The translations under genes were made by a program, and so were the position numbers. This document shows, one piece after another, positions 21,990-43,866 of a stretch of DNA of 43,866 nt. Each line of letters starts with the position of its first letter. Position 1 is the first letter of the stretch. The stretch comes from Anaeromicrobium sp. (GTDB taxonomy: Bacteria > Bacillota > Clostridia > Peptostreptococcales > Thermotaleaceae), in contig NZ_JAOART010000081.1 of assembly GCF_025210435.1 (NCBI RefSeq), forward strand, positions 1 through 43,866, given 5' to 3'. The notes under the pieces are model-generated. The model made no database searches, was not told the origin of the DNA, and saw only the letters and a program-made list of their open reading frames with translations.

Positions 21990-22226
21990 ATAGATTATAG
22001 TTTATAAACTTGATTTATGTGAGCCTACTTCAGGAAAATATATTGAAAATTTTTTCCACCCAAGTCCTTGTCACAAGGGAAAGTGTAAATCTTCGTAGAT
22101 AGGTTAATTACTCATGTTGGAGGAGCATAGGATGTTGTGACGTTCCAGGGTTCCAAAAATTTTTAATATATTCCCCCTTGTAGGCAAGTTACTGTATAAA
22201 GAAAACTTAGTGTTACGAAATCCATA
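21990..22226 (+). repeat. R1 repeat, copy A
   Basis: About 237 bp, 5 nt after the AI-2E gene. Ends are ATAGATTA and AAATCCATA, degenerate versions of the R1 inverted ends. It contains the conserved core (GTGAGCCTACTTCAGG, CACCCAAGTCCTTGTCACAA, GTTGTGACGTTCCAGGGTTCC, TAGGCAAGTTACTG). The long stem of the element is present with some G-T pairs. No reading frame of note. Confidence 0.9.
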
Positions 22227-22289
22227 AATATAATAGTTCTCATATATTTATAAAAGGTGAATAAAATATATTAGTAGTTAGGGAAAAAG

Positions 22290-22526
22290 TATAGATTTCT
22301 GGTGTATAAACTTGCTTTATGTGAGCCTATTTCAGGAAACTATTGAAAATCTTTTCCACCCAATTCCTTGTCACAATCGAAAGTGTGAATCTTCGTATAT
22401 AGGTCCACGTGTCATGTTGTAGTAGCATATGCTGTTGTGACGTTCCAGGGTTCCAAAAATTTTCAATATATTTACCTTCGTAGGCAAATTACAGTGTAAA
22501 GAAAATTTAAAATCATGAAATCTATA
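22290..22526 (+). repeat. R1 repeat, copy B
   Basis: 237 bp from TATAGATTT to AAATCTATA, in the same orientation as copy A and 63 bp after it. The left arm of its long stem lacks two bases relative to the right arm, so pairing is less perfect than in C and E. The end lies 8 nt before the cwlD SD, so it forms most of the cwlD upstream region. Confidence 0.9.
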
Positions 22527-22544
22527 AATATGTGAGGTGGTAGC

Positions 22545-23246
22545 TTGATAGTAATTATGAGAAAAAGATATGTATACCTAGTAGTAATCATGTTTATACT
22601 CATAGGAGCCTTATTATTAATATCAGATAAATTTGTAAGTACTTTTAAATTCAATGTAAGTAAAGTAATAATAGTAGATGCAGGCCATGGTGGCATAGAT
22701 GGAGGTGCAGTGGGGAAAAGTGGAACTAATGAGAGTAAGATAAATTTAGAGATAGCTTTAAGGTTGAGAGAGTTATTAGAAGAACAAGGAATTATTGTGA
22801 TTCTTACACGGGATGAGGATGTGGGATTATATTCTGACTCTGGAACCATAAGAAAGAAAAAAAATGAAGACCTAAGAGAGCGTAGAAAAATGATGAATGG
22901 AAATAATGCTGATTTATTTATTAGTATACATATGAATAGTTTCCCTGATTCTAAATATTATGGGGCTCAGACTTTTTATCCAGAAAATTCGGAAGAAAGC
23001 GAATTATTAGCTAAAAATATTCAAGAACAATTAAAAAAAGTATTAGATAGGAAAAACCATAGGGAAGCTAAATCTAAAAGGGATGTATACATATTAAAAG
23101 AATGTAAGGTACCAACAGTCCTAGTGGAATGTGGTTTTTTAAGTAATTTCCAAGAAGAAAAGTTACTTTCTAATAATATATATCAAGAAAAGGTGGCCTG
23201 GGCCATATATGTGGGTGTATTAGAATATTTTCAAGAGATAGATTAA
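22545..23246 (+). CDS. cwlD: N-acetylmuramoyl-L-alanine amidase CwlD
   Basis: CwlD removes the stem peptide in the first step of making muramic-delta-lactam in the spore cortex. The 233-residue product has an N-terminal membrane segment (about residues 8-26) and an Amidase_3 domain with zinc ligands H48 (DAGHGG), E63 and H129 (SIHMNS), and the catalytic glutamate in VLVECGFLSN. The TTG at 22545 is 5-6 nt after GAGGTG; the in-frame ATG at 22557 is too far from it. Length matches B. subtilis CwlD. Its partner PdaA is not in the window. Confidence 0.9.
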   Translation: MIVIMRKRYVYLVVIMFILIGALLLISDKFVSTFKFNVSKVIIVDAGHGGIDGGAVGKSGTNESKINLEIALRLRELLEEQGIIVILTRDEDVGLYSDSGTIRKKKNEDLRERRKMMNGNNADLFISIHMNSFPDSKYYGAQTFYPENSEESELLAKNIQEQLKKVLDRKNHREAKSKRDVYILKECKVPTVLVECGFLSNFQEEKLLSNNIYQEKVAWAIYVGVLEYFQEID

Positions 23247-23252
23247 GATACT

Positions 23253-23380
23253 TGTGGATAAGATGTGAACAAAAAAACTAAAAACTGCTAAAAGTCAGAA
23301 AATTACACGTATATAGAATATTATATTTATCCACATTTTATACACTATTATAATTAACATGTGTATGAATATGTGGATAA
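23253..23380. promoter_or_regulatory. Cluster of DnaA boxes
   Basis: Three perfect copies of TTATCCACA lie within 128 bp: 23253-23261 (- strand), 23327-23335 (+) and 23372-23380 (-). Three more sites differ from TTWTNCACA at one place: 23264-23272 (-), 23338-23346 (+) and 23360-23368 (-). The surrounding DNA is very AT-rich. The cluster is in the gap between cwlD and the hydrogenase operon, with no dnaA or dnaN nearby, so it looks like a non-origin DnaA-binding cluster. The rest of the 358-bp gap (23381-23536) shows only AT-rich DNA and short runs of T. Confidence 0.6.
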
Positions 23381-23536
23381 AATTAGGATATAATTATAAA
23401 GGATTATATTCAGGAATTTTTAGAAAATTAACGTTTATAAATATGGATTACCCATGAAGGTATATCCCTATTTATAGATGTATTTTTTTTGTAGATTTAA
23501 TATGATAAAAAATTATCAAAATTATTAATTTAATCG

Positions 23537-23565
23537 TTGCCATGTGGTTAAGGGGATAGTATACT
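23537..23565 (+). promoter_or_regulatory. Sigma-A promoter of the hydrogenase operon
   Basis: -35 TTGCCA (23537-23542), 17-bp spacer, -10 TATACT (23560-23565), 39 nt before the first gene. The hexamers and spacing equal those of the S10 promoter, so strong vegetative expression is likely. Confidence 0.8.
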
Positions 23566-23604
23566 GTTTATGAATATGACTGGATAAAAAAGGGTGATAG
23601 GATT

Positions 23605-23844
23605 ATGGAAATTAGTATATGTGTTGGAAGTGCTTGCCATTTAAAAGGATCACAAAGGGTAATTAAAAGATTACAAGAACTTGTTAAGATGAAGAATCTT
23701 GAAGATAAGATAGTTATAAAAGCATCCTTTTGTTTAGGTGAGTGTAATGACTATGTATCTGTAAAGGTGAGAGATGAAATAAGTTCTGTAAATGAAAGTA
23801 CTGTGGATGAGTTTTTTTATGAAAATGTTTTAGGGAGGCTTTAA
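23605..23844 (+). CDS. Thioredoxin-like [2Fe-2S] ferredoxin (NuoE C-terminal type)
   Basis: The 79-residue protein is a minimal thioredoxin-fold ferredoxin. Likely cluster ligands are C6 and C11 (CVGSAC) and the pair in FCLGEC near residues 43-47, the C-x4-C / C-x3-C pattern of NuoE, HndA and HydC. It lacks the helical N-terminal domain of full NuoE. As the first gene of the operon and 2 nt from the next, it probably exchanges electrons with the neighbouring iron-sulfur proteins. Confidence 0.88.
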   Translation: MEISICVGSACHLKGSQRVIKRLQELVKMKNLEDKIVIKASFCLGECNDYVSVKVRDEISSVNESTVDEFFYENVLGRL

Positions 23845-23846
23845 GG

Positions 23847-25547
23847 ATGAACATATTGAACTTTTCAAAGGCTAATTGTAAGAATTGTTATAAATGTTTA
23901 AGAAGTTGTCCTGTAAAAGCAATAAAAATAAAAAATGAGCAGGCCCAAATTGTAATTGAGAAATGCATCGGTTGTGGAAATTGCTTTAGAGTATGTCCAC
24001 AAAATGCACGAAAAATTAAAAGTGATTTAGAAAAGGTTAAAGATGCTATTAAAGATGGAAAAAAAGTAATAGCCAGTGTAGCCCCTAGTTATGTGGGAGC
24101 TTTTAATATGAAGACGGTGGGACAATTTGCAACAGGATTATTTGAACTTGGATTTAGTATAGTAGAAGAAACTGCCATTGGAGCAGAAGTAGTATCAGAA
24201 ATATATAAGAATAAGATAGAAAAAGGGGATAAAAAAATATATATAACTACCTGTTGTCCAGCTGCTAATGACCTAATAGAAAATTATTATCCAAAACTAG
24301 TAAATTATATGCTACCAGTAGTATCACCTATGATAGCCCATGGAAAAATAATAAAAGAAAAATATGGAATGGATTCCTATGTAGTATTTATAGGTCCTTG
24401 TATTGCAAAAAAGTTAGAGGCTGTAGATTTTAGACATGATGATATAGTAGATGCAGTAATAACTTTTGATGAATTAGAAGAGTGGTTTTATAATGAAAAA
24501 ATAGAACTTGATCATTTAGAAGAAAGTGATTTTAATGAAGATTCATTTAAAAGGGGTAGAGCCTACCCATTAGAATCCGTTTTAAATTATGAGAATGTAT
24601 CTAGAGAATATGAAGTACTTAAGATAAGTGGAATTGAAAACTCCATGGAAACCTTAGAATCTATAGAAAACAATCATTTAGATAAGATTTGTTTAGAGAT
24701 AAATACTTGCAGTGGTAGTTGTATAAAAGGACCTGCCATGACTGAGAAAAACTTTTACAAAGTAAAAAAAGCAGTAAAGGATTATGTGAAAGAAGCTAAG
24801 GATATGGAAGGATTTCAGGATTCTAATTGTGAAAATTTTAATAAGAAATTCTTAGATAAGAGTCCTTTGAGAAAAGAAGCATCACAAGAGGAGATAGAAG
24901 AAATATTAAAAAAAATAGGTAAGTATGAAGAAAAGGATGAACTAAATTGTGGAGGCTGTGGATACAATACTTGTAGAGAAAAGGCTCAAGCCGTATATGA
25001 GGGCATGGCTGAATTAAATATGTGTCTTCCCTTTATGAGAAGTAAAGCAGAGGGCCTTACTAATGTAATATTTGAACATTCACCAAATGGAATAATACTT
25101 ATAGATGATGAACTAAAAATAAAAGAACTTAACAATAAAGCAGAGAAATTATTTCATGTAAGAGCCCATGAAGTAAAGAATAAGCCTGTTGAAGTCATAT
25201 TAGATGATGAGTTATTTAGAAGAGTTCTTCAAAGGAAAGAAAGTATTATAGGTAAAAAAATATATCATAAGGAATATAATATTGTATTATTTCAGAGTAT
25301 CATATATTTAGAAAAGGAAAGCATATTACTTGCCATTATGACAAATATAACAGAAGAAGAAAAACACAAAGAGGAATTAACTCTAGTAAAGGAAAATACC
25401 ATAGAAGCAGCACAAAAGGTAATAGAAAAGCAAATGAGGGTAGCTCAAGAAATTGCCAGCTTACTGGGAGAAACCACAGCTGAGACTAAGGGTATACTTA
25501 CTAAGTTAAAGAAAATAGTCCTTCAAGAAAATGGTGATTATAGATGA
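23847..25547 (+). CDS. PAS-containing [FeFe]-hydrogenase-like protein (HydS-type putative sensor)
   Basis: 566 residues. Two [4Fe-4S] motifs (C11-C14-C17-C21 and C40-C43-C46-C50) precede an H-cluster domain with TTCCP (C136, C137), GPCIAKK (C185) and CSGSC (C288, C292). All four H-cluster cysteines are present, but L1 and L3 deviate from TSCCP and MACxGGC. A four-Cys cluster motif (C368, C371, C376, C393), a PAS domain (about 403-500) and a helical tail follow. This domain order is that of group C/HydS proteins, thought to sense H2 or redox state and not to be main catalysts. The stop overlaps the next ATG (ATGA). Confidence 0.9.
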   Translation: MNILNFSKANCKNCYKCLRSCPVKAIKIKNEQAQIVIEKCIGCGNCFRVCPQNARKIKSDLEKVKDAIKDGKKVIASVAPSYVGAFNMKTVGQFATGLFELGFSIVEETAIGAEVVSEIYKNKIEKGDKKIYITTCCPAANDLIENYYPKLVNYMLPVVSPMIAHGKIIKEKYGMDSYVVFIGPCIAKKLEAVDFRHDDIVDAVITFDELEEWFYNEKIELDHLEESDFNEDSFKRGRAYPLESVLNYENVSREYEVLKISGIENSMETLESIENNHLDKICLEINTCSGSCIKGPAMTEKNFYKVKKAVKDYVKEAKDMEGFQDSNCENFNKKFLDKSPLRKEASQEEIEEILKKIGKYEEKDELNCGGCGYNTCREKAQAVYEGMAELNMCLPFMRSKAEGLTNVIFEHSPNGIILIDDELKIKELNNKAEKLFHVRAHEVKNKPVEVILDDELFRRVLQRKESIIGKKIYHKEYNIVLFQSIIYLEKESILLAIMTNITEEEKHKEELTLVKENTIEAAQKVIEKQMRVAQEIASLLGETTAETKGILTKLKKIVLQENGDYR

Positions 25548-26716
25548 AATATTTTATAGATGTATCATCAAATAGTCTAAATAAATATGAAGAAGAACTG
25601 TGTGGAGATAAGGTTGAAATAATAAGAAATGAAGATAGTGTAATAATAGTTGTGGCAGACGGATTAGGCAGTGGAGTAAAGGCAAATATCCTAGCTACAC
25701 TAACTTCAAAAATAGCAGCAACCATGCTAAATGAAGGCATTAGCATAGAAGAGACCGTAGATACCATAATAAATACCCTCCCTGAGTGTAGAGTAAGAAA
25801 ATTAGCTTATGCTACCTTTACTATGATAAAGATAAGGGATGATGGTAGTGTTTATATAGCAGAATATGATAATCCTCCATTCATATTAGTAAGTGGAAAT
25901 AAACACTTAGAAGTGGTAAAGAGGAAAAAGGAACTACAGGGAAAAACTATAAAAGAAAGTGACTTTAAATTATCACCAAAGGATACCCTTACTGTAGTCA
26001 GTGATGGAGTTATTCATGCAGGAGTAGGAGCTTACTTAAATTTAGGTTGGCAATGGGATAATGTGAAAGATTACTTAGTAAATATAAATCTGAAAGAAAA
26101 ATCAGCAGATGGTGTAGGAAAGAATTTAATAGATGTATGTGAAAATTTATACGGAGGGAAACCTGGAGATGATACTACTGTAGTATCTGTTAAGGTTAAA
26201 GAACCTGAAATAATAAATATGCTAATAGGGCCACCACAGGATAAAATGAAGGATAAGGAAGTAGTATATGATTGGATAAGGGGAGAAGGAAAAAAAATAG
26301 TATGTGGTGGTACGGCAGCTAATGTAGCATCTAGAGAACTAAATAGAAAAATGAAAGTAAGTATGGATATAATAGACCATGAAGTACCACCTATAGCATA
26401 TATAGAGGGAATAGATTTGACAACAGAAGGAGTACTTACTTTAAATAATGCATTAAAGAGAATAGAATATTATAGAGAAAAGGGAGAATTAGCATTTAGA
26501 AAGTCCTTTTATAATAAAAAGGATGGAGCATCCATGTTGGCTAAAATCCTCATAGAAGATTGTACCCATCTAAATATATGGATTGGTTCAGCAGTGAATC
26601 CTGCCCATCAAAAATCTGATTTTCCTATTAATTATTCTACCAAGTTAAAGATAATAAATGATATGATAAAAGTTATGAAGAAAATGGGAAAAGTTGTGAC
26701 TAAAAAAAGTATATAA
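25544..26716 (+). CDS. SpoIIE/PP2C-type phosphatase linked to HydS
   Basis: The 390-residue protein has a PPM/SpoIIE-type phosphatase domain in its N-terminal half: the metal-site motif VVADGLGSG (D39), YATFTMIKI, then TVVSDGVIHAG and GDDTTVVSVKV. From about residue 235 to the end is a second region with IVCGGTAANVASREL and IEGIDLTTEGVLTL that I do not recognise. It overlaps the HydS gene by 4 nt, so the two are coupled; HydS may control its activity. It is probably not SpoIIE itself, as there is no membrane domain. Confidence 0.82.
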   Translation: MKYFIDVSSNSLNKYEEELCGDKVEIIRNEDSVIIVVADGLGSGVKANILATLTSKIAATMLNEGISIEETVDTIINTLPECRVRKLAYATFTMIKIRDDGSVYIAEYDNPPFILVSGNKHLEVVKRKKELQGKTIKESDFKLSPKDTLTVVSDGVIHAGVGAYLNLGWQWDNVKDYLVNINLKEKSADGVGKNLIDVCENLYGGKPGDDTTVVSVKVKEPEIINMLIGPPQDKMKDKEVVYDWIRGEGKKIVCGGTAANVASRELNRKMKVSMDIIDHEVPPIAYIEGIDLTTEGVLTLNNALKRIEYYREKGELAFRKSFYNKKDGASMLAKILIEDCTHLNIWIGSAVNPAHQKSDFPINYSTKLKIINDMIKVMKKMGKVVTKKSI

Positions 26717-26727
26717 CGAGGTGACAT

Positions 26728-28179
26728 ATGATTAAATTTCAAAGTAATGTACAATTGATAAAGTTTGAAGTATTAAAAGAAGTGGCAAAATCAGCTATGG
26801 AAAATAGATTATTACAAGATTATAAGAAAATACCAAAGAGAATAATAAAGGGACCAAAGCCTAGAACTAGATGCTGTATATATAAGGAAAGGGCCATAAT
26901 GAAACAAAGGGTAAGGGCTGCTATGGGAGGAAAAAGCAATAATAAAAATATTATTGAGGTCCTAGATATAGCCTGTGATGCTTGCCCTATAAACAGATTT
27001 ACAATAACAGAAGCTTGTAGGGGATGTCTAGCCCATAGGTGTTCAGAAGCATGTCCTGTAGGAGCCATATATCATGTGGGACAAAGGGCCTATATTAATC
27101 AAAATATTTGTATAGAATGTGGTAAATGTAGGGATGCTTGTCAGTATAATGCCGTATCAGATGTAATGAGACCTTGTAGAGGTTCTTGTCCTACGGGAGC
27201 TTTAACCTTAGATGAAGATAAGACTGTTGTAATTAATGATGATTTATGTGTACAATGTGGTATATGTATAGTACAATGTCCATTTGGGGCCATAATGGAT
27301 AAATCCTTCATACCAGATATATTAGATATTATAAAGCATTCAAAGGAAAATACTAAATATAAAACATATGCTGTAGTAGCTCCAGCCATAGTAAGTCAAT
27401 TTGATACGGATTTTTCTAAGGTGGTAGAAGCCATAAAAGAATTAGGGTTTTATGACGTGATAGAAGCAGCAGAGGGTGCCGATTTAGTAGCCCATTATGA
27501 AACAGAGGAATTTTTAGAAAAATCAAAGGATGATGGGGTAATGACCACATCCTGTTGTCCAGCCTTTGTAAAATATGCGGAAATAACATATCCACAATTT
27601 AAGGATAATATATCTTCAACCGTATCACCTATGATAGCCATAAGTAGACTTATAAAGGAAAAGGACGAAAAGGCAAAGGTTGTATTTATAGGACCTTGCA
27701 TTGCAAAAAAAGCAGAAGCCATGAGAGAAGATGTAAAAGGTGCTACAGATTTTGTAATGACCTTTGAAGAATTGTATGCCATGTTGGTTGCTAAAGATAT
27801 TAAAATTGAAGATTGTGAAGGTGACTTTAACAGTAAGGCAACACCTAATGGTAAGATGTTTGCAAGAAGTGCAGGAGTAACAGAAGCAATAAAAAATGTA
27901 ATAAACAAGGAAAAGATAGATGTGGACTTCAAACCGGTTACTTGTAATGGGTTAAAAGAATGTGATAAGGCATTTAAAATGTTGAAGGTGGGACGTTTAA
28001 ACGGAAATTTCATAGAAGGTATGGCTTGTGTTGATGGTTGTATTGGTGGGCCCGTTAATTTAATTAGAAGAAAACAAAATACTAAAAAAGTAAATGACTA
28101 TGCGAAAGAATCGAAAAATATTAATGGAGATTATATTGTGGACGAAAGTAAAAAATGTGATTTACATATGCATAGGTAA
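26728..28179 (+). CDS. [FeFe]-hydrogenase, monomeric with multiple ferredoxin clusters
   Basis: 483 residues. The N-terminal part (about 80-190) is cysteine-rich with at least three ferredoxin-like motifs (CRGCLAHRCSEACP; CIECGKCRDAC; CVQCGICIVQCP), a plausible wire to ferredoxin. The H-cluster domain shows L1 TSCCP (C276, C277), L2 GPCIAKKAE (C324) and L3 MACVDGC (C434, C438), so it should be catalytic. The arrangement is that of group B hydrogenases. It is the last gene of the operon, 11 nt after the phosphatase gene. Confidence 0.9.
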   Translation: MIKFQSNVQLIKFEVLKEVAKSAMENRLLQDYKKIPKRIIKGPKPRTRCCIYKERAIMKQRVRAAMGGKSNNKNIIEVLDIACDACPINRFTITEACRGCLAHRCSEACPVGAIYHVGQRAYINQNICIECGKCRDACQYNAVSDVMRPCRGSCPTGALTLDEDKTVVINDDLCVQCGICIVQCPFGAIMDKSFIPDILDIIKHSKENTKYKTYAVVAPAIVSQFDTDFSKVVEAIKELGFYDVIEAAEGADLVAHYETEEFLEKSKDDGVMTTSCCPAFVKYAEITYPQFKDNISSTVSPMIAISRLIKEKDEKAKVVFIGPCIAKKAEAMREDVKGATDFVMTFEELYAMLVAKDIKIEDCEGDFNSKATPNGKMFARSAGVTEAIKNVINKEKIDVDFKPVTCNGLKECDKAFKMLKVGRLNGNFIEGMACVDGCIGGPVNLIRRKQNTKKVNDYAKESKNINGDYIVDESKKCDLHMHR

Positions 28180-28191
28180 AAATAGTAGATC

Positions 28192-28387
28192 AAAAGAGTA
28201 GACTTTATTTAAGGCATATGAAAAAAATAAACTAGTCAATTTCCTGAGGGATTTGGATTATTTTCAAGGCATGGTGAGCGAGCATATTGAACATATGTAA
28301 GGGAGCCATAACGAAGAAAATAATTCAAATAACCAGTGAAATGACTAATTTATTTTTTGAATATGCCTAAAGTATACTCTTTTTTTT
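28192..28387 (+). terminator. Terminator of the hydrogenase operon with repeat in its loop
   Basis: A 15-bp stem with one mismatch pairs 28192-28206 with 28369-28383 and is followed by T through 28387. The loop contains the whole R2 copy a, itself a self-complementary element. Without R2 it would be an ordinary terminator with a loop of a few bases. Confidence 0.7.
28212..28368 (+). repeat. R2 repeat, copy a (MITE-like)
   Basis: 157 bp bounded by imperfect inverted ends of about 24 bp (AGGCATATGAAAAAAATAAA on the left, its partial complement on the right). Inner arms also pair: 28251-28264 with the complementary GAAAATAATTCAAA near 28316-28329, and ATGG with CCAT nearer the centre. It therefore folds into one long interrupted hairpin. 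No reading frame. An inverted second copy is at 39327-39484. Confidence 0.85.
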
Positions 28388-28417
28388 GTATAGTCATATA
28401 CTTAAAAGTAAATACTA
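28388..28417 (+). promoter_or_regulatory. Possible sigma-G promoter of the ger operon
   Basis: GTATA (28388-28392) and AATACTA (28411-28417) with an 18-bp spacer resemble the forespore sigma-G pattern (GMATR-N18-CATWMTA), each with a deviation. Germination receptor operons are usually sigma-G dependent. Confidence 0.4.
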
Positions 28418-28449
28418 ATATTTGTAATAATAGGTTAAGGAGTTAGACT

Positions 28450-29928
28450 ATGGATAAAGATAAAATACTATCATTGTCATTAAAAGAGAATATAGAAATA
28501 TTTGATAAGAGTTTTAATAAGGAAGCTACTATAAAATATAGAAAATTTAAATATAAAAATGAAATAGATTGTTGTTTAATATATGCAGGAGATATGATTG
28601 ATGGAGAAACCATATACTCAACCTTATTAAGACCTATTTTATGGCATAATAAATTACCAGAAACTGATTTAATTTCATATTTAATAGATAACGTAATAAT
28701 TAGCCATGATGTTAATGTGAAAAACAAGGTAAATGAAATGATTGGTGATATACTTTATGGATTTGTTGTATTTCTAATTGATGGAGAAAATGAAGGCATA
28801 GTAATACCAGCACAAGGATGGGAAGAAAGAAGTATAACGGAGCCCATATCAGAACAGGTAGTAAGAGGCCCTAGGGAGTCCTTTAATGAAGCCATAATGA
28901 CTAATATAGCACTTCTTAGGAGGAAGATAAAAAGTCCAAATTTGAGATTTAAATTTAGAGAAGTGGGCAAAGAAACTCGAACTAGGGTATGCATCAGTTA
29001 TATAGAAAATATAGCTGAAATGAACATAGTAAAAGAAGTAGAAAAAAGATTAGATACTATAGACATAGACGGAATATTAGAAGGTGGGTATATAGAAGAA
29101 TTAATAAGGGATGAACCCCTATCTCCCTTTGCTACTATAGGTGGTAGTGAAAGACCTGATACCATAGCAGGGAAATTATTAGAAGGAAGGATTGCCATAT
29201 TTGTGGATGGTGCTCCCTATGTGCTTTCAATGCCCTATGTGTTTATAGAATATTTTCAAACTAATGAAGATTATTATAATGGGTATATATATTCATCCTT
29301 TAATAGGATGCTAAGGCTTTTAGGATTTTTCTTATCCACCAGTGTACCAGCCATTTATGTGGCCTTAGTAACCTTTCATCAGGAGATGGTTCCAACTCCT
29401 TTAATACTTAGTATATCAGCAGCTAGGGATGGTGTTCCCTTTCCCACTATTGTGGAGGCCCTACTTCTTCTATTGGCTTTTGAGTTATTAAGAGAGGGTG
29501 GAATTAGATTGCCTGCACCTATAGGTTCTACCATAAGTTTTGTTGGAGCCATCATATTAGGCCAAGCTGCAGTAGATGCAAAATTTGTTAGTGCTCCCAT
29601 TGTAATAATAACGGCTCTAACGGGAATAACTAACTTCTTATTACCTAATATGATAGGTCCCCTTAATGTGGTAAGATTAATATTTTTAATATTAGCTTCT
29701 TTTTTAGGACTATATGGATACATATTTGGAGTTATGGGACTCATAATACATTTAGTATCAATGAAATCCTTTGGAATACCTTACATGTTAGATATTGGAG
29801 AATTAAAGTTTCAAGATGTAAAGGATACGGCCATAAGGGCCCCCTGGTGGTATATGACACTAAGACCTAAGTTAATAGGTAAGAAAAATAGAGTTAGACA
29901 AAGAAAAAAATCACATAAAAAAAGGTGA
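28450..29928 (+). CDS. Spore germination receptor A subunit (GerAA/GerKA family)
   Basis: 492 residues. The soluble N-terminal region (about 1-280) has the family blocks YAGDMIDGETIYSTLL and EQVVRGPRESFNEAIMTNIALLRR. The C-terminal region has four to six membrane segments (about 285-312, 330-352, 360-400, 407-440). A subunits form, with B and C, the nutrient receptor in the spore inner membrane. Start: ATG after AAGGAG. Confidence 0.93.
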   Translation: MDKDKILSLSLKENIEIFDKSFNKEATIKYRKFKYKNEIDCCLIYAGDMIDGETIYSTLLRPILWHNKLPETDLISYLIDNVIISHDVNVKNKVNEMIGDILYGFVVFLIDGENEGIVIPAQGWEERSITEPISEQVVRGPRESFNEAIMTNIALLRRKIKSPNLRFKFREVGKETRTRVCISYIENIAEMNIVKEVEKRLDTIDIDGILEGGYIEELIRDEPLSPFATIGGSERPDTIAGKLLEGRIAIFVDGAPYVLSMPYVFIEYFQTNEDYYNGYIYSSFNRMLRLLGFFLSTSVPAIYVALVTFHQEMVPTPLILSISAARDGVPFPTIVEALLLLLAFELLREGGIRLPAPIGSTISFVGAIILGQAAVDAKFVSAPIVIITALTGITNFLLPNMIGPLNVVRLIFLILASFLGLYGYIFGVMGLIIHLVSMKSFGIPYMLDIGELKFQDVKDTAIRAPWWYMTLRPKLIGKKNRVRQRKKSHKKR

Positions 29929-29933
29929 TTTAG

Positions 29934-31076: not shown

Positions 31077-31077
31077 T

Positions 31078-31293: not shown

Positions 31294-31296
31294 TTT

Positions 31297-33567: not shown

Positions 33568-33802
33568 TATAGATTTCTGGTGTATAAACTTGCTTTATGT
33601 GAGCCTATTTCAGGAAACGATTGAAAATCTTTTCCACCCAAGTCCTTGTCACAAGCGAAAGTGTGAATCTTCGTATATAGGTTCACGTGTCATGTTGGAG
33701 TAGTATAGGATGTTGTGACGTTCCAGGGTTCCAAAGATTTTCAATCGTTTCCCTTGTAGGCAAGTTACTGTATGAAGAAAGCTTAGTGTTGATAAATCTA
33801 TA
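33568..33802 (+). repeat. R1 repeat, copy C
   Basis: 235 bp from TATAGATTT to AAATCTATA, 26 nt after the B subunit gene. Its long stem is perfect over 20 bp (left arm from GGAAACGATTG, right arm ending CAATCGTTTCC), and it carries CGATTG/CAATCG where the other copies have ATATATTG/CAATATAT. It occupies most of the 354-bp gap before the next gene. Confidence 0.92.
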
Positions 33803-34954: not shown

Positions 34955-34993
34955 CATTTATATAAAAGTTATACAATTTTATAATCTATAGAC

Positions 34994-35022: not shown

Positions 35023-35048
35023 TAGATTGTAAAAAATAATATTAAGAC

Positions 35049-35134
35049 AAGGGGAGGCTATAAGGATAGCCTGAGAGAGAAATGTTATTTCTGACCCTCA
35101 TAACCTGATTTTGGATAATGCCAACGTAGGGATG
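35049..35134 (+). promoter_or_regulatory. TPP riboswitch (THI element)
   Basis: The conserved parts are all present in order: AGGGG, CTGAGAG, GACCC, AACCTGAT, GGATAATGCCAACGTAGGGA. It binds thiamine pyrophosphate. Together with the terminator 40 nt downstream it should switch off thiC-purF by early termination when TPP is plentiful. Confidence 0.95.
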
Positions 35135-35174
35135 TTTATATTTAGTATGGAATAATTGTGTATAATTCATATAA

Positions 35175-35203
35175 AATAGACTCGTTACGAGTCTATTTTT
35201 TTT
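35175..35203 (+). terminator. Riboswitch-controlled terminator
   Basis: A 10-bp perfect stem (35175-35184 with 35188-35197), 3-nt loop and a run of T through 35203. It is the expression platform of the TPP riboswitch. Confidence 0.88.
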
Positions 35204-35216
35204 ATATAGATATGGC

Positions 35217-35456
35217 TATAGATTTATTGATTATAAACTTGCTTTATGTGTGCCTATTTCAGGAAAATATATTGAAAATCTTTTCCACCCAAGTCCTTGT
35301 CACAAGCGAAAGTATGAATCTCCGTAGATAGGTTCATGACTCATGTTGGAGTAGCATAGGATGTTGTGACGTTCCAGGGTTCCAAAAATTTTCAATATAT
35401 TTACCCTTGTAGGCAAGCTACTGTAATAAAATAAATTTAAAATCAAGAAATCTATA
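35217..35456 (+). repeat. R1 repeat, copy D
   Basis: 240 bp from TATAGATTT to AAATCTATA, beginning 14 nt after the riboswitch terminator and ending 105 nt before thiC. It therefore lies within the transcribed leader whenever the riboswitch lets transcription pass. Core conserved, with GTGTGCC in place of GTGAGCC near the left end. Between it and thiC (35457-35560) is a short imperfect hairpin near 35498-35521 and the thiC SD. Confidence 0.92.
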
Positions 35457-35560
35457 AATCTATAGTTAGTTAATTATTCCAAAATCATACATATGTGAGA
35501 GTGAGTTATGGGCCTACTCTTTGAACTTTAATTATTTAATAAATTATAAGGGGGACAATT

Positions 35561-36874: not shown

Positions 36875-36876
36875 CC

Positions 36877-38178
36877 ATGACAATAGATGAATTTAATGAT
36901 AAATTCAAAGAAGAATGTGGCATATTAGGAGTGTTTCTAGGCAAGAAAGAAAATGTAGAGACACAAGTATATTCAGGTTTATTGGCCCTTCAACATAGGG
37001 GTCAAGAAAGCTGTGGCATATCCTATAGAGATAATAATGAAATTAAAAATATTAAAAAGATGGGACTAGTAGATAACCTATTTGAAGGATTAAAGATTAA
37101 TACTAATCTATTAATAGGCCATGTAAGATATTCTACCTGGGGGGAGAGTAATATTAAAAATACACAACCTCTGTTTAGTAACAATATTAGCCTAGCCCAT
37201 AATGGAACCCTTACAAATGGAGATCATATAAAAGAAAATCTCATGAAAAAGGGAATAAAATTTAGTACAGATACGGATTCGGAAGTAATATTAAAAGTAT
37301 TCGAAGAAGAAGGCATAAAGGGAATTTATAATAGGATAAGGGGCTCATATGGAGTAGTTATTATGAAGGATGATGAGTTAATAGCCATGAGGGATCCCTT
37401 AGGAATTCGTCCCGTATGCCTAGGTAAGATAGAAGATGGCTACATAGTAGCATCAGAAAGTTGTGCCATAGAAGCTATGGGTGGATCATTTATTAGGGAT
37501 CTAATGGCAGGAGAGGTAATAAAAATAGACGAAAATGGAGTTTCTGTAATAAGAAGGGGAAGTAAAAGTATCAATACTTGTGCATTTGAGTATATATACT
37601 TTGCTAGGGAAGACTCTAAAATAGATGGAATTTCAGTAGGTGAAATAAGAACCCAATTAGGAAAAATTCTAGGAAAAGAAGATTTTAGTAATGACCATAT
37701 GGTTATGGGAGTGCCAGATACGGGGACTTTACCAGCCCTAGGTTATGCCTATGAATCTAATCTTAAATATGAACCAGGAATCCTTAGAAATAAGTATGTA
37801 GGAAGAACCTTCATATGTCCAAATAATAGGAAGAATAAAGTGAATGATAAATTTTTCATATTGAAGGATAGAATAAGAGAAAAGGACCTGATAGTAGTGG
37901 ATGATTCCCTAGTAAGGGGAACTACCAGTAAGGAATTGATAAAAAAGTTAAAAAAAGCAGGTGCTAATAGGATTCACTATAGGGTAGCTTCGCCCATTAT
38001 AAGATGTAAATGTGACTTGGGAATAAATATGAAAAATGAAAACATAATAGGTCATTTTAAACAGATAGAAGAAATAAGGGAAGAGATAGGTGCAGATACA
38101 CTAAAATATATAAGTACAGAGGATTTAATAAGCATATTAGGGAAAAATATTTGTACGTTATGTTTTACTAATAAATAA
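36877..38178 (+). CDS. purF: Amidophosphoribosyltransferase PurF
   Basis: PurF makes phosphoribosylamine, the first purine intermediate. The 433-residue product has a short propeptide with nucleophile C14 (EECGILGVF), glutaminase blocks (GLLALQHRGQES, HVRYSTWG, LAHNGTLTN) and the phosphoribosyl motif VVDDSLVRGTTS. Cysteines in INTCAFEY, CKCD and CTLC match the [4Fe-4S] sites of Bacillus-type PurF. It starts 2 nt after thiC with no other purine genes nearby, so it is probably co-regulated by TPP. It is somewhat shorter than the usual 460-500 residues. Confidence 0.92.
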   Translation: MTIDEFNDKFKEECGILGVFLGKKENVETQVYSGLLALQHRGQESCGISYRDNNEIKNIKKMGLVDNLFEGLKINTNLLIGHVRYSTWGESNIKNTQPLFSNNISLAHNGTLTNGDHIKENLMKKGIKFSTDTDSEVILKVFEEEGIKGIYNRIRGSYGVVIMKDDELIAMRDPLGIRPVCLGKIEDGYIVASESCAIEAMGGSFIRDLMAGEVIKIDENGVSVIRRGSKSINTCAFEYIYFAREDSKIDGISVGEIRTQLGKILGKEDFSNDHMVMGVPDTGTLPALGYAYESNLKYEPGILRNKYVGRTFICPNNRKNKVNDKFFILKDRIREKDLIVVDDSLVRGTTSKELIKKLKKAGANRIHYRVASPIIRCKCDLGINMKNENIIGHFKQIEEIREEIGADTLKYISTEDLISILGKNICTLCFTNK

Positions 38179-38218
38179 TAAGGATAGATGGCATTGCCAT
38201 CTATCCTTATTATTTTGG
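38174..38218. terminator. Bidirectional terminator between purF and the MBL gene
   Basis: A 19-bp perfect stem (38174-38192 with 38196-38214) with a 3-nt loop and A/T-rich sides on both strands. The stop codons of both convergent genes lie inside it (purF 38176-38178; MBL 38210-38212). Confidence 0.85.
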
Positions 38219-39289
38219 ATAATTATATGAACCTGGAGATACGTTAAACTCAATACTATTGCCATCAGAAGTACTAATTATTGTACCAGATTCATCTGTC
38301 CTATAAAGGGGTATTCCCTTTAATCTAAGTTTTTCTACTGTTTCCCTATGGGGATGCTTATAGTCATTTTTTCTTCCACAGGATATGACAGCATATTGAG
38401 GAGATACTTCATTTAAGAAGGCATCACTAGTAGAAGACCTGCTTCCATGGTGACCTACCTTTAATACATTAGACTTTAAACTAATTCTATTTCTAACCAT
38501 TTCTTCCTCAGAGTCCTTTTCAGAGTCTCCTGTGAATATATAGGAAGTATTTCCAAATATAACTTTAATTACTATGGAATAATCATTAAGATTGTGATAC
38601 TTTTTATCCCTTGGAGCCAGTATAACACAGGTGGAATCACCAACTTTAAAAGTATTTCCAATCTTAGGTTTTGTTACTTTAATATTCTTGTTTTTTATAG
38701 CGCTTATTACATCCCTATAGGTCTTTGTGGTATGAATTATGTTGGGTAATAGTACATTTCCAATTTTAAAGTTATTTATTACCGTATCTAGGGAACCTAT
38801 ATGATCTTCGTGTGGATGGGTACCTACCACATAATTTAATTTTTTAATATTATTTTTTCTAAGATAACTTAACAATAATTTGGAATCAGAATTATTACCA
38901 GCATCAATTAGCATAGTCTCCCCATTATTTTCAATCAATATGGAATCTGCTTGCCCCACATCTATAAAATGAACTCTCAGTTTTCCACTATAATCCTCAG
39001 ATACATGAACATCTTCTGATAAGACGGGAGTATCTTTTTTGATTTTATCCTTTAAGGATAATAGAAGGGAAGAGACATTAAAATCCTTCACAGGAATTTT
39101 TTGAATTTCTCCACCTAAAGGGAAAATATATGTGGATGTTAGAAAAAATATTAAAAATAAAGAACCATAATACTTGAGAACTTTAAGCCGTTTTTTGTTT
39201 TTAGTCCAAATAACATACTTGGGTTCTAATAAGCCTAGGATAAAAAGTGATAAGAATAAAAAAGCCATAAAAGAAAATAAAATATCCAT
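38210..39289 (-). CDS. ComEC-like metallo-beta-lactamase-fold protein, membrane-anchored
   Basis: 359 residues. Two hydrophobic segments at about 3-21 and 41-58 suggest anchoring with the enzyme domain outside the cell. The domain begins LRVHFIDVGQADSILIE and has the metal motif THPHEDH (H158, H160, D162, H163), FTGDSE and VGHHGS, as in the C-terminal domain of ComEC/Rec2. Stand-alone forms are widespread in Firmicutes; a nuclease or phosphodiesterase role is inferred. It is the only gene read on the - strand. Confidence 0.85.
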   Translation of the reverse strand: MDILFSFMAFLFLSLFILGLLEPKYVIWTKNKKRLKVLKYYGSLFLIFFLTSTYIFPLGGEIQKIPVKDFNVSSLLLSLKDKIKKDTPVLSEDVHVSEDYSGKLRVHFIDVGQADSILIENNGETMLIDAGNNSDSKLLLSYLRKNNIKKLNYVVGTHPHEDHIGSLDTVINNFKIGNVLLPNIIHTTKTYRDVISAIKNKNIKVTKPKIGNTFKVGDSTCVILAPRDKKYHNLNDYSIVIKVIFGNTSYIFTGDSEKDSEEEMVRNRISLKSNVLKVGHHGSRSSTSDAFLNEVSPQYAVISCGRKNDYKHPHRETVEKLRLKGIPLYRTDESGTIISTSDGNSIEFNVSPGSYNYPK

Positions 39290-39326
39290 ATAACTACTCC
39301 TTTAATATTGGATTTATGTAAGTCTA

Positions 39327-39484
39327 AGGCATATTCAAAAAATAAATTAGTTATTTCACTGGTTATTTGAATTATTTTCTTCGTTATGGAATCGCTTACA
39401 TATGTTCAATATGCTCGCTCACCATGCCTTGAAAATAATCCAAATTCCTCAGGAAATTGACTAGTTTATTTTTTTCATATGCCT
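39327..39484 (-). repeat. R2 repeat, copy b (inverted)
   Basis: 158 bp, the reverse complement of copy a with few differences. The ends are AGGCATATTC and CATATGCCT. Flanking bases do not match those of copy a, so the ends of the element are fixed by the limits of similarity. A stray AGGCATAT at 39515-39522 may be a chance match. The remaining gap to the lipase gene (39485-39597) is AT-rich and otherwise without recognised features apart from the lipase SD. Confidence 0.85.
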
Positions 39485-39597
39485 AAATAAAATTTTATCA
39501 CATTTTGTCTATTAAGGCATATAGGATTAATAAATTATAGGATTATGAAAATAAGGCCATAATTACTAATATAATTATAGTCATAAAGGAGGAACAT

Positions 39598-40446
39598 ATG
39601 GAAAATAAGGTGGCATTAGTATTAGAAGGTGGGGGACTTAGGGGGAATTTTACTTCTGGCGTACTAGATTATTTTTTAGATAACAATATACATATTCCCT
39701 ATGTGATAGGAGTTTCCATGGGAGCATGTAATGGATCTACCTATGTATCAGAACAAAGGGGAAGGAATTACAGGGTAAATACGGAGTTTTTAAGGGACAA
39801 AAGGTATTTTAGCTATAGTAACTTAATAACTAAGGGAGAGTTATTTGGTATGGATTTCATATTTGGAGATTTACCTAAAAATATATTACCCTTTGATATG
39901 GATACATTTATGAATTCGAAAAAAGAGTTTATAGCCGTAGCCACAGATTGTAATACAGGACAGGCCATATATTTTAGAAAGGGTGATTCAGAAGATATGT
40001 ATGAGGTATGTAAAGCATCTAGCAGTCTACCTCTCATATCCAATATGGTGGATATGAATGGTAAAAAATATTTAGATGGAGCTATTGCTGATGCAATTCC
40101 AGTGAAAAAGGCCATAGAGGATGGGAATAATAAAGTAGTATTAGTTTTAACAAGACCCTTGTCATATATGAAAAAACCTTTGAAGCTAGGAAGATTAATA
40201 GAATATAAGTATAGACAATACCCTAATCTAATAAATACCCTCCTAAAAGCACATGGGGTCTATAATGAAACTTTAGAATATATAAGGCAATTAGAAGAAG
40301 AAGGAAAGGCCTTTGTTATTCGACCGAGAGAACATTTACAAGTTGGAAGAATAGAGAGAAATAAGGAAAAAATAGATGGCATTTATAAACTGGGATATGA
40401 AATGGCAAAGGAAAATATGGATAATTTAATTGAGTTTATAAATTAA
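39598..40446 (+). CDS. Patatin-like phospholipase
   Basis: 282 residues with the patatin catalytic layout: oxyanion loop GGGLRG (11-16), nucleophile S40 in GVSMG, and the dyad aspartate D160 in LDGAIAD (Gly-Ala in place of the usual Gly-Gly). No signal peptide, so it should be a cytosolic lipid acyl hydrolase of the bacterial YjjU/RssA type. ATG follows AAAGGAGGA. It stands alone, ended by its own terminator. Confidence 0.92.
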   Translation: MENKVALVLEGGGLRGNFTSGVLDYFLDNNIHIPYVIGVSMGACNGSTYVSEQRGRNYRVNTEFLRDKRYFSYSNLITKGELFGMDFIFGDLPKNILPFDMDTFMNSKKEFIAVATDCNTGQAIYFRKGDSEDMYEVCKASSSLPLISNMVDMNGKKYLDGAIADAIPVKKAIEDGNNKVVLVLTRPLSYMKKPLKLGRLIEYKYRQYPNLINTLLKAHGVYNETLEYIRQLEEEGKAFVIRPREHLQVGRIERNKEKIDGIYKLGYEMAKENMDNLIEFIN

Positions 40447-40499
40447 AGTAAAATAAAGTCATATCTTTCAGAAAATTAGATTAAAATGTATATAAATGT

Positions 40500-40528
40500 A
40501 AAGACATGAAAAAGCATGTCTTTTTTTA
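40500..40528 (+). terminator. Terminator after the patatin gene
   Basis: A 9-bp stem (40500-40508 with 40515-40523), a 6-nt loop and a run of seven T. It separates the lipase from the agr-like locus. Confidence 0.85.
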
Positions 40529-40543
40529 TCGAAGGAATGGGGG

Positions 40544-40573
40544 TTTAAATGTATTGCATAAATATGGTAAAAT
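40544..40573 (+). promoter_or_regulatory. Possible promoter of the agr-like locus
   Basis: TGGTAAAAT (40565-40573) resembles an extended -10, with TTTAAA (40544-40549) 18 bp upstream as a weak -35. This is the only candidate found between the patatin terminator and the first gene of the locus. Confidence 0.35.
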
Positions 40574-40637
40574 AAGAAAAAAGGAAAAATATAGAAAATG
40601 TTGGTGTCATATGACTATTTAGGAGTTGAGATATAAT

Positions 40638-41102
40638 TTGATAGGTGGGGCTAAGACAATATTAATCATAAGGCAAATGATAGAGAGTATATTGCTAGTA
40701 GGTGGAATATATATATTGTCTAGTAAAAAATTAGATAAAAAAGCAATATATGTTGGTATTATACATGGAATAATTGTAAATGTTATTAGATTATTGCCAA
40801 TAAGCTTTGGGGTACACAGTGTATTATCTTTAACAGGACTAATATATATGGTAAGTCAAATAAGCAATATAAATATTATAAATATAATATCTAATGGAAT
40901 TATTTTGTTTTTAATATTATCTATATGTGATTGGATAGCTCTAGGATTATATACGAATCTATTTAAATTAAGTATAGAACAATTACTAAATGGGGGTGTG
41001 GTCAGTTCATTATATAGTATGGGGCCATTAGTTACAATTGCTATAATGTTATTTTTAATAAAATTTATAAGGGAAAGAAGAAAAAATGGATTTAATACAT
41101 AA
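40638..41102 (+). CDS. Small integral membrane protein of the agr-like locus
   Basis: About 154 residues, with some five hydrophobic segments and a basic C-terminus (FIRERRKNGF). I do not recognise the family. Start is uncertain: AGGAG (40621-40625) touches a TTG at 40626 and is 12 nt from the TTG at 40638, which I use; the first ATG is at 40677. Its 3' end overlaps agrB by 17 nt, so it is translationally coupled to the peptide system and may aid peptide export or sensing. Confidence 0.6.
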   Translation: MIGGAKTILIIRQMIESILLVGGIYILSSKKLDKKAIYVGIIHGIIVNVIRLLPISFGVHSVLSLTGLIYMVSQISNINIINIISNGIILFLILSICDWIALGLYTNLFKLSIEQLLNGGVVSSLYSMGPLVTIAIMLFLIKFIRERRKNGFNT

Positions 41103-41700
41103 ATTATCAAATCATATTTCTGAAAAAATTGAAAATGAACTTAATCATGACAATGATCAGCGGGAAGTAATAAAATATGGTGTCTTTGTGTCAATGCAGA
41201 TTCTATATTCAATATTAGTATCCATAATAATAGGGTTAGTCTGTGGAACCTTAAAAGAAATTTTAATAATATCATTTACAGCATCAATTTTAAGAAGGTA
41301 TTCTGGAGGGGTCCATGCTACCTCTTTGAATAGATGTGTGGTAATTGGAAATTTTATATTTGGGGTAATGGCATTAGGAGTAAAATATATTTATTTAAGT
41401 AATCATATAAGTCTATATTTAATAGGAGGGATATTCCTATATGGATACTATGTAATATTTAAATATGTACCTGTAGATACAGAATCTAAAAGAATAAAGA
41501 ATGATATAAAGAGAAAAAAATTGAGAAACAAATCTCTTGTACTTTTAAGTATATATCTCATAATCACCATGCTATTTATTAAAGATAATGTATCTATGGC
41601 AATTGCTATGGGAATATTTTATCAAATATTTACCCTAACTAAATTGGGAAATGTTACTTTGTCAAAATTAGATAATATATTATCTAATATAATAAATTAA
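41086..41700 (+). CDS. agrB: AgrB-like peptide-processing membrane protease
   Basis: AgrB removes the C-terminal tail of the AgrD precursor and forms the thiolactone ring. The 204-residue product has five to six membrane segments and the catalytic set at the same positions as S. aureus AgrB: R70, H77 and C84 (LRRYSGGVHATSLNRC). Typical motifs such as KYVPVDTE follow. The substrate gene agrD follows 15 nt downstream. Confidence 0.92.
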   Translation: MDLIHKLSNHISEKIENELNHDNDQREVIKYGVFVSMQILYSILVSIIIGLVCGTLKEILIISFTASILRRYSGGVHATSLNRCVVIGNFIFGVMALGVKYIYLSNHISLYLIGGIFLYGYYVIFKYVPVDTESKRIKNDIKRKKLRNKSLVLLSIYLIITMLFIKDNVSMAIAMGIFYQIFTLTKLGNVTLSKLDNILSNIIN

Positions 41701-41715
41701 AAGGAGAGTGTACAA

Positions 41716-41853
41716 ATGAAAAACAAATTATTTAAACTAGCTGTTGTATTAGGATCTGGTGTATTTGCGTTATTAGCAAATGCTACAGCTGCGTCTGCGT
41801 GCGCATGGGGAAGTTATCAGCCAGAGGAACCTAAATGTTTAAGAGATGAATAA
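41716..41853 (+). CDS. agrD: AgrD-like cyclic lactone autoinducer precursor
   Basis: A 45-residue peptide, ATG after AAGGAGAG. It has an amphipathic/hydrophobic leader (KNKLFKLAVVLGSGVFALLA), the core ASACAWGSY and the tail QPEEPK-C-LRDE. By alignment with clostridial AgrD peptides, whose tail QPEEPKSLRDE follows a five-residue ring, the signal is predicted as a thiolactone of C29 to S33 (CAWGS). C41 in the tail replaces the usual serine. Confidence 0.92.
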   Translation: MKNKLFKLAVVLGSGVFALLANATAASACAWGSYQPEEPKCLRDE

Positions 41854-41886
41854 AATATAAGAGATGAAAATCTCTTATATTTTATT
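41852..41886 (+). terminator. Hairpin after agrD (terminator or attenuator)
   Basis: A 14-bp perfect stem (41852-41865 with 41870-41883) and a GAAA tetraloop, followed by only a weak T run. It overlaps the agrD stop codon and lies 18 nt before the GGDEF gene, so it may lower, and not abolish, read-through into it. Confidence 0.65.
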
Positions 41887-41903
41887 ATAAGTAGGAGTAA
41901 AAT

Positions 41904-43556
41904 ATGAATACAACAAGGGAAAGAGAAATTAAAATACATGAAATTGTTTCTATAGTAAAGGTACTGACCATATTACAGGGGGCTATTATTTTATTTGTAG
42001 GTCTTGATTTTAACTTAGGCATAAGTTTGGTACAAAAGTTACAATATAATGTGTTGATGCTAATACTAATATTGATGATTATATTAGTAACAGCCTATAG
42101 ACTTTCTACAAATGGACATGAAGGGAAAATTATACATATAATAGAGACAATCCTAATGCTGTTTTTTTTAACAATACTAATCAATATAACTGGAGGATAT
42201 TTAAGCTTATACAAGCCAATTTTCATATTCTTAATCATAGTATCATCTATACAACATGGTAAAAAAATTGGTTTGAATATGGCGGGGATTTGTTCAATTA
42301 TAATATTAGGAATAGATTTAATAGAAGCAGGATACAGGGGCATAAATTCATACTTTGAGAGTGATTTAATAGTATCCGGTATATTCATATTAACAGCTTG
42401 GCTATTGGGCCATTATATAGAACTTGAGAATGAGTATAGGGATAGTATTATGGAGTTAGCAGTTAAGGATGAACTGACTGATCTTTATAATCATAGATAT
42501 TTTCAAGAATATCTTCATAGGGTAATAAAAAGAGCTGAAGAAGAAAAAAATGTAGTATCACTACTACTACTTGATATAGATTATTTTAAAAACTATAATG
42601 ATTGCTATGGACATACAGCGGGAGATCATGTACTAAGACAAATAGGCCGCATATTAAAAAGGCAAGCTGGAGATAAGGCCATGGTAGCTAGATATGGAGG
42701 AGAAGAGTTTGCCATAGTCATACCAGGAAAGAATTTAAATGAGGCTGTTGTTATTGGTGAAAATATAAGGTTGGCAGTGGAAAAAAATAATTTTTATGGA
42801 GAGGAAGCCCTTACATATGGGAGATTAACCATATCAGTGGGGGTATCATCATATCCAGAGAAATCTATAGGAAAAAGCGAACTTATAAATAGTGCTGATG
42901 ATGCCCTATATAGGGCTAAGTTTTTTCATAAAAATAGGGTAGAATCCTATGTATCTATTTTAGAGGAATTAAAGAATGAAATTGAAGATAAACACATAGA
43001 TATAATAAGTTCTATAAAAACTTTAATAAGTGTTATAAATGCTAAGGATAGGTATACTTATGCTCATACAGAGAGAGTAGTAATGTATTGTGATATATTA
43101 GGCCATAGGTTAGGACTAAATGAATGGGATACTAAAAAACTAAAATATGGAGCATATTTACATGATATAGGAAAGATAAACCTATCTAAGGCCCTTTTAA
43201 ATAAAAAGACTAAATTTACAAATGAAGAATGGGCTAATATGAAAATGCATCCCAATTATGGGGTGGATATTATAAAGCCTGTAGAAAGTTTAAAGGATAT
43301 AGTGCCTCTTATATTACACCATCATGAAAGATATGATGGTGGAGGATATCCTAGTGGTATTTCAGGCGAGAATATTCCCTATTTATCAAGGATTTTGACG
43401 GTGGTAGATAGTTTTGATGCAATGACTTCTAATAGGCCTTATAAAATGGGCAAGAGCTCTGAAGCGGCCATTGAAGAACTTTTAAAGAATAAGGGAATCC
43501 AATTTGATCCACATATTACTGATGAATTCATAAAAATAATAAAAGAGAAATTATAA
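41904..43556 (+). CDS. Six-TM GGDEF and HD-GYP protein (c-di-GMP turnover)
   Basis: 550 residues. The N-terminal 175 hold about six membrane segments (roughly 18-36, 46-64, 79-96, 104-116, 121-140, 153-171). A GGDEF domain follows (about 185-345) with intact active site GGEEF (265-269) but no inhibitory RxxD before it. Then comes an HD-GYP domain (about 365-550) with HDIGK (420-424) and HHERYDGGGYP. It could both make and degrade c-di-GMP. No histidine kinase domain. It begins 50 nt after agrD in the same direction, in the place where agrC/agrA might be expected. Confidence 0.93.
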   Translation: MNTTREREIKIHEIVSIVKVLTILQGAIILFVGLDFNLGISLVQKLQYNVLMLILILMIILVTAYRLSTNGHEGKIIHIIETILMLFFLTILINITGGYLSLYKPIFIFLIIVSSIQHGKKIGLNMAGICSIIILGIDLIEAGYRGINSYFESDLIVSGIFILTAWLLGHYIELENEYRDSIMELAVKDELTDLYNHRYFQEYLHRVIKRAEEEKNVVSLLLLDIDYFKNYNDCYGHTAGDHVLRQIGRILKRQAGDKAMVARYGGEEFAIVIPGKNLNEAVVIGENIRLAVEKNNFYGEEALTYGRLTISVGVSSYPEKSIGKSELINSADDALYRAKFFHKNRVESYVSILEELKNEIEDKHIDIISSIKTLISVINAKDRYTYAHTERVVMYCDILGHRLGLNEWDTKKLKYGAYLHDIGKINLSKALLNKKTKFTNEEWANMKMHPNYGVDIIKPVESLKDIVPLILHHHERYDGGGYPSGISGENIPYLSRILTVVDSFDAMTSNRPYKMGKSSEAAIEELLKNKGIQFDPHITDEFIKIIKEKL

Positions 43557-43557
43557 A

Positions 43558-43603
43558 GGATATGAAGTGGTAAATTATACATTATTCATATTCTTTTTAT
43601 TTT
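43558..43603 (+). terminator. Probable terminator after the GGDEF/HD-GYP gene
   Basis: A 9-bp stem (43558-43566 with 43585-43593, one G-T pair), an 18-nt loop and TTTTTATTTT. The loop is large, so strength is uncertain. 43604-43653 holds AT-rich DNA only. Confidence 0.55.
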
Positions 43604-43653
43604 CTATACATGGTATAATTAATATTAAAATAAAATCAATTTGAAAATGGGAT

Positions 43654-43866
43654 TATAGATTTATCATTTTCAAACTTGCTTTATGTGAGCCTACTTCAGG
43701 AAAATATATTGAAAATCTTTTCCACCCAAGTCCTTGTCACAAGTGAAAGTGTGAATATTGGTAGGTAGGTTCATGAGTCATGTTGAGGTAGCATAGGATG
43801 TTGTGACGTTCCAGGGTTCCAAAGATTTTCAATATATTTTCCCTTGTAGGCAAGTTACTGTATAAA
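43654..43866 (+). repeat. R1 repeat, copy E (cut by window end)
   Basis: Starts TATAGATTT; the first 213 of about 237 bp are visible. The long stem is perfect over 20 bp (left arm AAAATATATTG..., right arm ...CAATATATTTT). Same orientation as copies A to D. Confidence 0.9.

Follow-up and report, generated by a model that had tools for sequence, protein, structure and literature searches.

What is the repeat that recurs along one contig of a clostridial draft genome, a structured RNA or a mobile element? The window analyzed here is the whole of contig NZ_JAOART010000081.1 (43,866 nucleotides; contig C35 in our numbering) from the 3.96-Mb, 148-contig genome of Anaeromicrobium sp. (GCF_025210435.1), for which a preliminary description had claimed five copies of a repeat of about 237 bp, R1, with inverted ends and a branched fold. 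All five are present where they had been placed (Table 1). That description left the choice between a structured RNA and a hairpin-dependent mobile element. The mobile element, though not its dependence on a hairpin, is supported by its duplicated TA and an IS630-type end, whereas the structured RNA gains no support, as Rfam gives no match, both strands fold and the stem arms are mixed. R1 is very probably a non-autonomous miniature inverted-repeat transposable element (MITE), mobilized by an IS630-family (Tc1/mariner-like) transposase.

The repeat is real, and its family has about 40 times as many members as the window contains. A 23-nucleotide pattern from the R1 core, TTGTGACGTTCCAGGGTTCCAAA, had 203 matches in the genome at up to three mismatches (positions are known for the first 100), against none for the reversed control. 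Some 200 palindromic copies are thus scattered through this draft genome; one lies between a thiamine pyrophosphate (TPP) riboswitch and thiC, and several further contigs besides the window end within R1. The 79 copies from this genome that were cut out end to end have a mean pairwise identity of 0.89 (range 0.71–0.98) and a consensus starting TATAGATTT and ending AAATCTATA. These common ends, as claimed earlier, are found in copies B, C and D, but not in A, where the left end is damaged, or in E, which is cut at 43866 because the window is an entire contig. Length ranges from 222 to 240 bp, mostly 235–239 bp, among 92 extracted copies, some of which are the same site fetched twice. No open reading frame (ORF) longer than 48 amino acids lies wholly inside copies C and D, in agreement with the earlier statement that R1 has no protein frame, and a protein-coding repeat was rejected because only short ORFs are found inside. 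R1 is therefore short and without a transposase of its own, as a MITE would be.

The limits of the element were defined by comparison with a syntenic contig (G001:C18) of one same-genus genome, the one drawn by the search, in which the sites of copies A–D can be compared. All four copies are missing there, and at B, C and D the element is gone together with one TA. At empty site C the lengths match (20 bp + TA + 31 bp); at D one TA remains and the surrounding sequence varies somewhat in length, and at B the expected target TA reads CA. Tandem R1 copies have one TA in common (AAATCTA-TA-TAGATTT). Longer target repeats are absent, as only 2 of the 79 copies have flanks that are identical over 3 bp, and none over 4–8 bp. 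Based on the empty sites, the TA shared in tandems and the lack of any longer flank repeat, the element is TAGATTT...AAATCTA, approximately 234 bp, lying between duplicated TAs, and the outermost TAs of the R1 copies are the target duplication. Insertion at TA with duplication, seen as a single TA at sites C and D and as CA at B, is that of an IS630/Tc1-mariner MITE. Terminal inverted repeats are also present: the outermost helix (columns 2–9 with 234–241) is paired in 98.8% of cells in an alignment of 75 sequences, made up of 71 of the 79 copies from this genome (eight were dropped without a fixed rule), two from G001 and two from a Marinisporobacter metagenome-assembled genome (MAG). Over the outer 32 bp, the left and right ends of the same copy agree at 23 positions in B, 21 in C and 26 in D.

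Elsewhere in the genome there is an IS630-type element with similar ends. A search with the DDE_3 profile (PF13358, cut-off 28.6 bits) gave 76.1 bits on contig C114 and 36.7 on C107, with C94 below the cut-off at 25.1. The C114 fragment scored 88.4 bits against the NCBIfam IS630 model over profile positions 175–297 of 299, which is under the whole-protein cut-off of 100 because the protein is a fragment. Over 62 residues the C94 protein shares 97% identity with it, and the proteins of C39, C42 and C137 share 94% over their own last 36 residues. Beyond the transposase stop, all five contigs (C39, C42, C94, C114 and C137) carry a right end that reads inwards as TATAGATTT(C/A)(G/T)TGGTAAA(G/A)AC(T/C)TTGTTTTATG. 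Compared with the left end most common among R1 copies, this right end has the same base at 25 of 32 positions on C39, C42 and C137 and at 22 of 32 on C94 and C114; the left repeat of copy B matches the IS630-type end at 25 of 32 bases, compared with 23 for its own right end. On contig C42 an R1 copy adjoins the insertion sequence (IS), with one TA in common. On contig C21 (L139 1500–1672) the first 30 bp of an R1 copy are exactly those of the IS630 right end (30/30) and the rest is ordinary R1, a hybrid that suggests exchange between R1 and the IS. The fragment on contig C107 (L127) comes from another IS630-type transposase and is interrupted by a stop within the match. A weak contig-start match on C90, met in the search for the left half of the IS, appears on reading to be another type of transposase. 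Relatives of the transposase occur in 17 of 394 genomes of the order, this one included (protein search, E ≤ 1e-8). The same-family genome G009 has a relative of the C114 fragment at 46% identity, in three copies of an element of about 1.27 kb with ends TATAGATAAAC. Peptide patterns for the transposase found no relative in a genome contig collection and none in viral contigs.

In the mechanism we propose, an IS630-family transposase supplied in trans would bind the terminal inverted repeats of R1, about 32 bp each, excise the element and insert it at TA dinucleotides, with duplication of the TA. ISY100, an IS630/Tc1/mariner element, inserts at hardly any site other than TA and duplicates it, and its transposase, the sole protein required, binds the terminal inverted repeats (PMC2170065). 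R1 resembles ISY100 in its duplicated TA target and differs in lacking its own transposase. The limits of R1, its TA duplication, the similar IS630 ends, the high copy number and the lack of copies A–D in the same-genus genome are observed; that the resident IS630-type transposase moves it, by ISY100/mariner chemistry, we infer.

Several observations weigh against this reading. The partner element is seen as right ends and C-terminal transposase fragments on five contigs; no left half or left end was recovered, the full-length NCBIfam IS630 profile search having found no left half, and the contigs break inside the IS. As only this right-hand part was recovered, an intact resident transposase is hypothetical. 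The R1 core has no recognizable origin in the recovered part, so that the outcome which the preliminary description had named as a refutation, R1 matching the ends of a transposase-bearing transposon and being simply its deletion derivative, applies to the ends alone. Pairs with a double change in the consensus fold number 11, against 4.4 (standard deviation [sd] 1.4) in shuffles, with none of 500 shuffles as high, although kinship alone can push related sequences above shuffles and the structure was derived from the same alignment. Finally, plain insertion at a symmetric TA does not explain the orientation bias of R1.

This bias was measured in 13 contig stretches (736,315 bases, the window included) holding 51 R1 copies of at least 100 bits. 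The stretches had been picked after the short-locus results, either for copies on both strands or for many copies, with C7 taken for a discordant copy and others for length. ORFs of at least 100 amino acids were called by a simple longest-ORF rule with no gene finder, and GC skew within 10 kb served as a proxy for fork direction. By skew, 42 of the 51 copies lie along the leading strand, four along the lagging strand and five are ambiguous (binomial p = 5e-9); between same-strand neighbors, 32 copies are co-directional and four opposite (p = 2e-6), both tests treating copies as independent, though tandem pairs are not. Among the 41 copies with both neighbors called, 36 sit between same-strand genes, at a median distance of 51 bp from the upstream ORF, and five between convergent or divergent ones; the other 10 have no called neighbor on one side. 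Earlier sets of short loci, with cruder gene calls, gave 48 versus 2 of 61 and 51 versus 1 of 67 (11 more uncalled), and the largest gave 58 versus 2 of 74, with 47 uncalled. The longer stretches are less extreme and are trusted more.

The same DNA contains a second MITE, R2, of about 165 bp, with ends AGGCATATGAAA.../...AATATGCCT beside TA, at 28199–28368 (+) and 39327–39497 (−) in the window. R2 is missing from both syntenic same-genus sites and has 24 matches, fragments counted, in the 736 kb. As a control, its 19 copies of at least 100 bits fall six leading, 12 lagging and one ambiguous, with neighbors at 3 versus 6, and differ from R1 by both measures (Fisher p = 6e-6 for skew and 0.0016 for neighbors).

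How the bias arises admits more than one explanation. Under the proposed mechanism, the reverse orientation would be selected against or poorly recovered in DNA that is replicated and transcribed co-directionally. Tentatively, replication itself might be responsible, if the palindrome inserts or is lost according to the strand that serves as lagging-strand template; this concerns the bias only and is compatible with a MITE. The leading-strand majority fits such an effect, as do the four copies that lie opposite to their neighbor genes, three of which follow the skew while the fourth is ambiguous. However, two copies on contig C119 go with local genes against the skew, R2 has no such preference in the same DNA, and we know of no replication-strand rule for Tc1/mariner elements. 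Replication and transcription could not be told apart as causes here because the discordant copies are split, two following genes and three following skew. It is unlikely, though conceivable, that R1 is an orientation-locked MITE, with a folded core that the cell hardly perceives in one of its two directions, reverse copies being lost or never formed; the means may be a sense RNA within read-through mRNAs or a strand-specific DNA hairpin at the fork, so that replication or transcription would fix the direction. With R2 as a built-in control, the R1 bias offers a workable system in which to ask if the direction of small transposons is set by replication or by transcription.

Orientation also bears on the possibility that R1 is mainly a functional structured RNA (a cis-regulator, an mRNA processing or stability element, or a small RNA) that was spread by transposition and kept in the sense orientation because its transcript works only so. 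We consider this very doubtful. In its favor are the direction of neighboring genes, the distance to the upstream ORF, a conserved fold and paired changes above controls. Copy C has a minimum free energy of −73.3 kcal/mol (z = −6.3 vs. 100 shuffles) and folds broadly as the preliminary description had drawn it. In the RNAalifold consensus of the 75 sequences (46 pairs, energy −20.88, covariation term just −0.87), helices 6 and 7, with 100% and 98.4% of cells paired, correspond to the GTCACAA/TTGTGAC stem and to the first inner hairpin (GTGAA/TTCAC), whereas the second inner hairpin (ATGTT/AGTAT) is absent and GCCTAT/ATAGGC takes the place of the AACTTGC/GCAAGTT stem. Under this structure 97.7% of cells pair, compared with 96.5% (sd 0.1) in shuffles, none of 500 being as high, and with 26–49% for slid control structures; the reservation given above for shuffles applies equally. 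Paired changes are also seen between species, as doubly changed pairs that still pair number four in L053, three in L056 and three in L145.

The same comparisons show how loosely the pairing is kept. Of the 46 pairs, four, four and seven are broken in L053, L056 and L145, respectively. The change in both arms of the 20-bp stem (CG/CG vs. ATAT/ATAT), cited earlier as a sign that the pairing itself is kept, holds for copies C, D and E but not for B, where the left arm is short and the right one long. Across the 71 copies from this genome the arms are long/long in 30, short/short in 16, long/short in 14 and short/long in 11 (Fisher p = 0.028), so that 25 mix arm lengths and strict pairing is not supported; the variable base is complementary in 10 of the 16 short/short copies. 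Inner arm alleles are mixed as well (ACCC/GGGT 63, ATTG/GGGT 3, ACCC/CAAT 2, ATTG/CAAT 1, other 2). The minus strand folds about equally, with a mean over 79 copies of −65.0 kcal/mol (sd 9.3) against −68.5 (sd 8.8) for the plus strand, which folds lower in 56 copies and the minus in 23. Rfam, a search proposed in the preliminary description, has no match over R1: the Rfam 15 covariance models gave none over copies A and B (E ≤ 5) or over the G001 copy L053 (E ≤ 2), and a scan of the window at gathering scores returned a TPP riboswitch and an S10 leader only. The absence of all four comparable window copies from the same-genus genome likewise counts against an RNA function.

The fold of R1 is largely the element's own inverted repeat, alike on both strands. 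Because arm variants mix and both strands fold with similar energy, this is a loosely kept palindrome, which gives no support for a strand-specific RNA. For an IS630-type MITE the fold would exist simply because R1 is one long imperfect inverted repeat, and descent from a handful of founders, exchange among copies and possibly template switching between arms could maintain loose pairing with no strict RNA function. It is exceedingly improbable that R1 is an IS200/IS605-type single-strand element or a REPIN-like hairpin moved by a Y1 transposase: such single-strand elements resemble it in hairpin structure and strand bias, but R1 has terminal inverted repeats, its ends resemble those of a DDE (IS630) element, and the TA duplicated at empty sites contradicts this origin, although no search was aimed at Y1 transposases.

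Beyond its own genome R1 is rare. The 23-nucleotide pattern matched one of 60 genomes, its own, and blastn found R1 in three of 394 genomes of the order, its own included, with two first-look candidates scored per genome, so that weak copies may be missed. A query of G001 with a copy from G001 itself gave eight matching pieces (40 of 74 candidates scored), namely two full copies, 74% identical to copy C, and fragments. In Marinisporobacter sp. MAG McD1.33 (G015), blastn found copies at 86% and 94%, and R1 lies on three short contigs (L145, L146 and L147), the copy on L145 having a core like that of G001. These copies may reflect either horizontal transfer or mis-binning of contigs; a search with one flank gave no close match in G000 or G001, which is compatible with both. 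Neither blastn of R1 against plasmid and phage collections nor the core pattern against viral contigs gave a match, though records of this or very near genomes may have been left out.

Ends that begin TATAG are also found in Correia elements. The closest published analogue, as judged by description, appears to be RUP of Streptococcus pneumoniae, a 107-bp MITE in 110 copies with ends like the resident IS630-Spn1, 60.9% of copies on the leading strand and enrichment between convergent genes (PMC3049150). R1 shares with RUP its high copy number, ends similar to a resident IS630 element, target duplication and a tight fold taking in the inverted ends. It differs in its approximately 238 bp with a branched core, well beyond the RUP length, in its stronger bias (42 vs. 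4 by skew) and in lying mostly between same-strand genes (36 of 41). Transcripts of Correia (NEMIS) MITEs can be cut by RNase III and those of ERIC MITEs destabilized through an RNase E site (PMC10969869); these are MITEs like R1 from other hosts, and the transcript effects belong to them. A literature search yielded no paper that we recognized as describing the R1 family. R1 thus belongs to an ordinary class of elements; within the searches described here its family is new, and its one unusual property is its orientation. With it, the RUP/Correia/ERIC class reaches this group of Clostridia.

Table 1. Positions of the R1 copies and of their ends in the window.
Feature	Position	Strand	Remarks
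R1 copy A	22005..22226	+	Left end damaged; TAAACTTG... start near 22005 after target TA, placed from the empty site
R1 copy A right TA	22225-22226	+	Placed from the empty-site comparison
R1 copy B	22290..22526	+	Complete, flanking TA counted in
Copy B left terminal inverted repeat	22290..22321	+	32 bp, TATAGATTT...TTTATG
Copy B right terminal inverted repeat	22495..22526	-	32 bp compared
R1 copy C	33568..33802	+	Complete, flanking TA counted in
R1 copy D	35217..35456	+	Complete; between TPP riboswitch/terminator and thiC
R1 copy E	43654..43866	+	Right end lost at contig end

Judged from its empty site, copy A seems to be missing roughly 15 bp of the left inverted repeat (22000–22010), yet the flank junction is still TA. 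Copy D falls within 35040–35456, where the TPP riboswitch and terminator are followed by R1 and then thiC, so that the leader is lengthened by R1, which is missing from the same-genus thiC leader. The S10-Clostridia ribosomal protein leader (Rfam RF03136, 42.8 bits) lies at 333–414.

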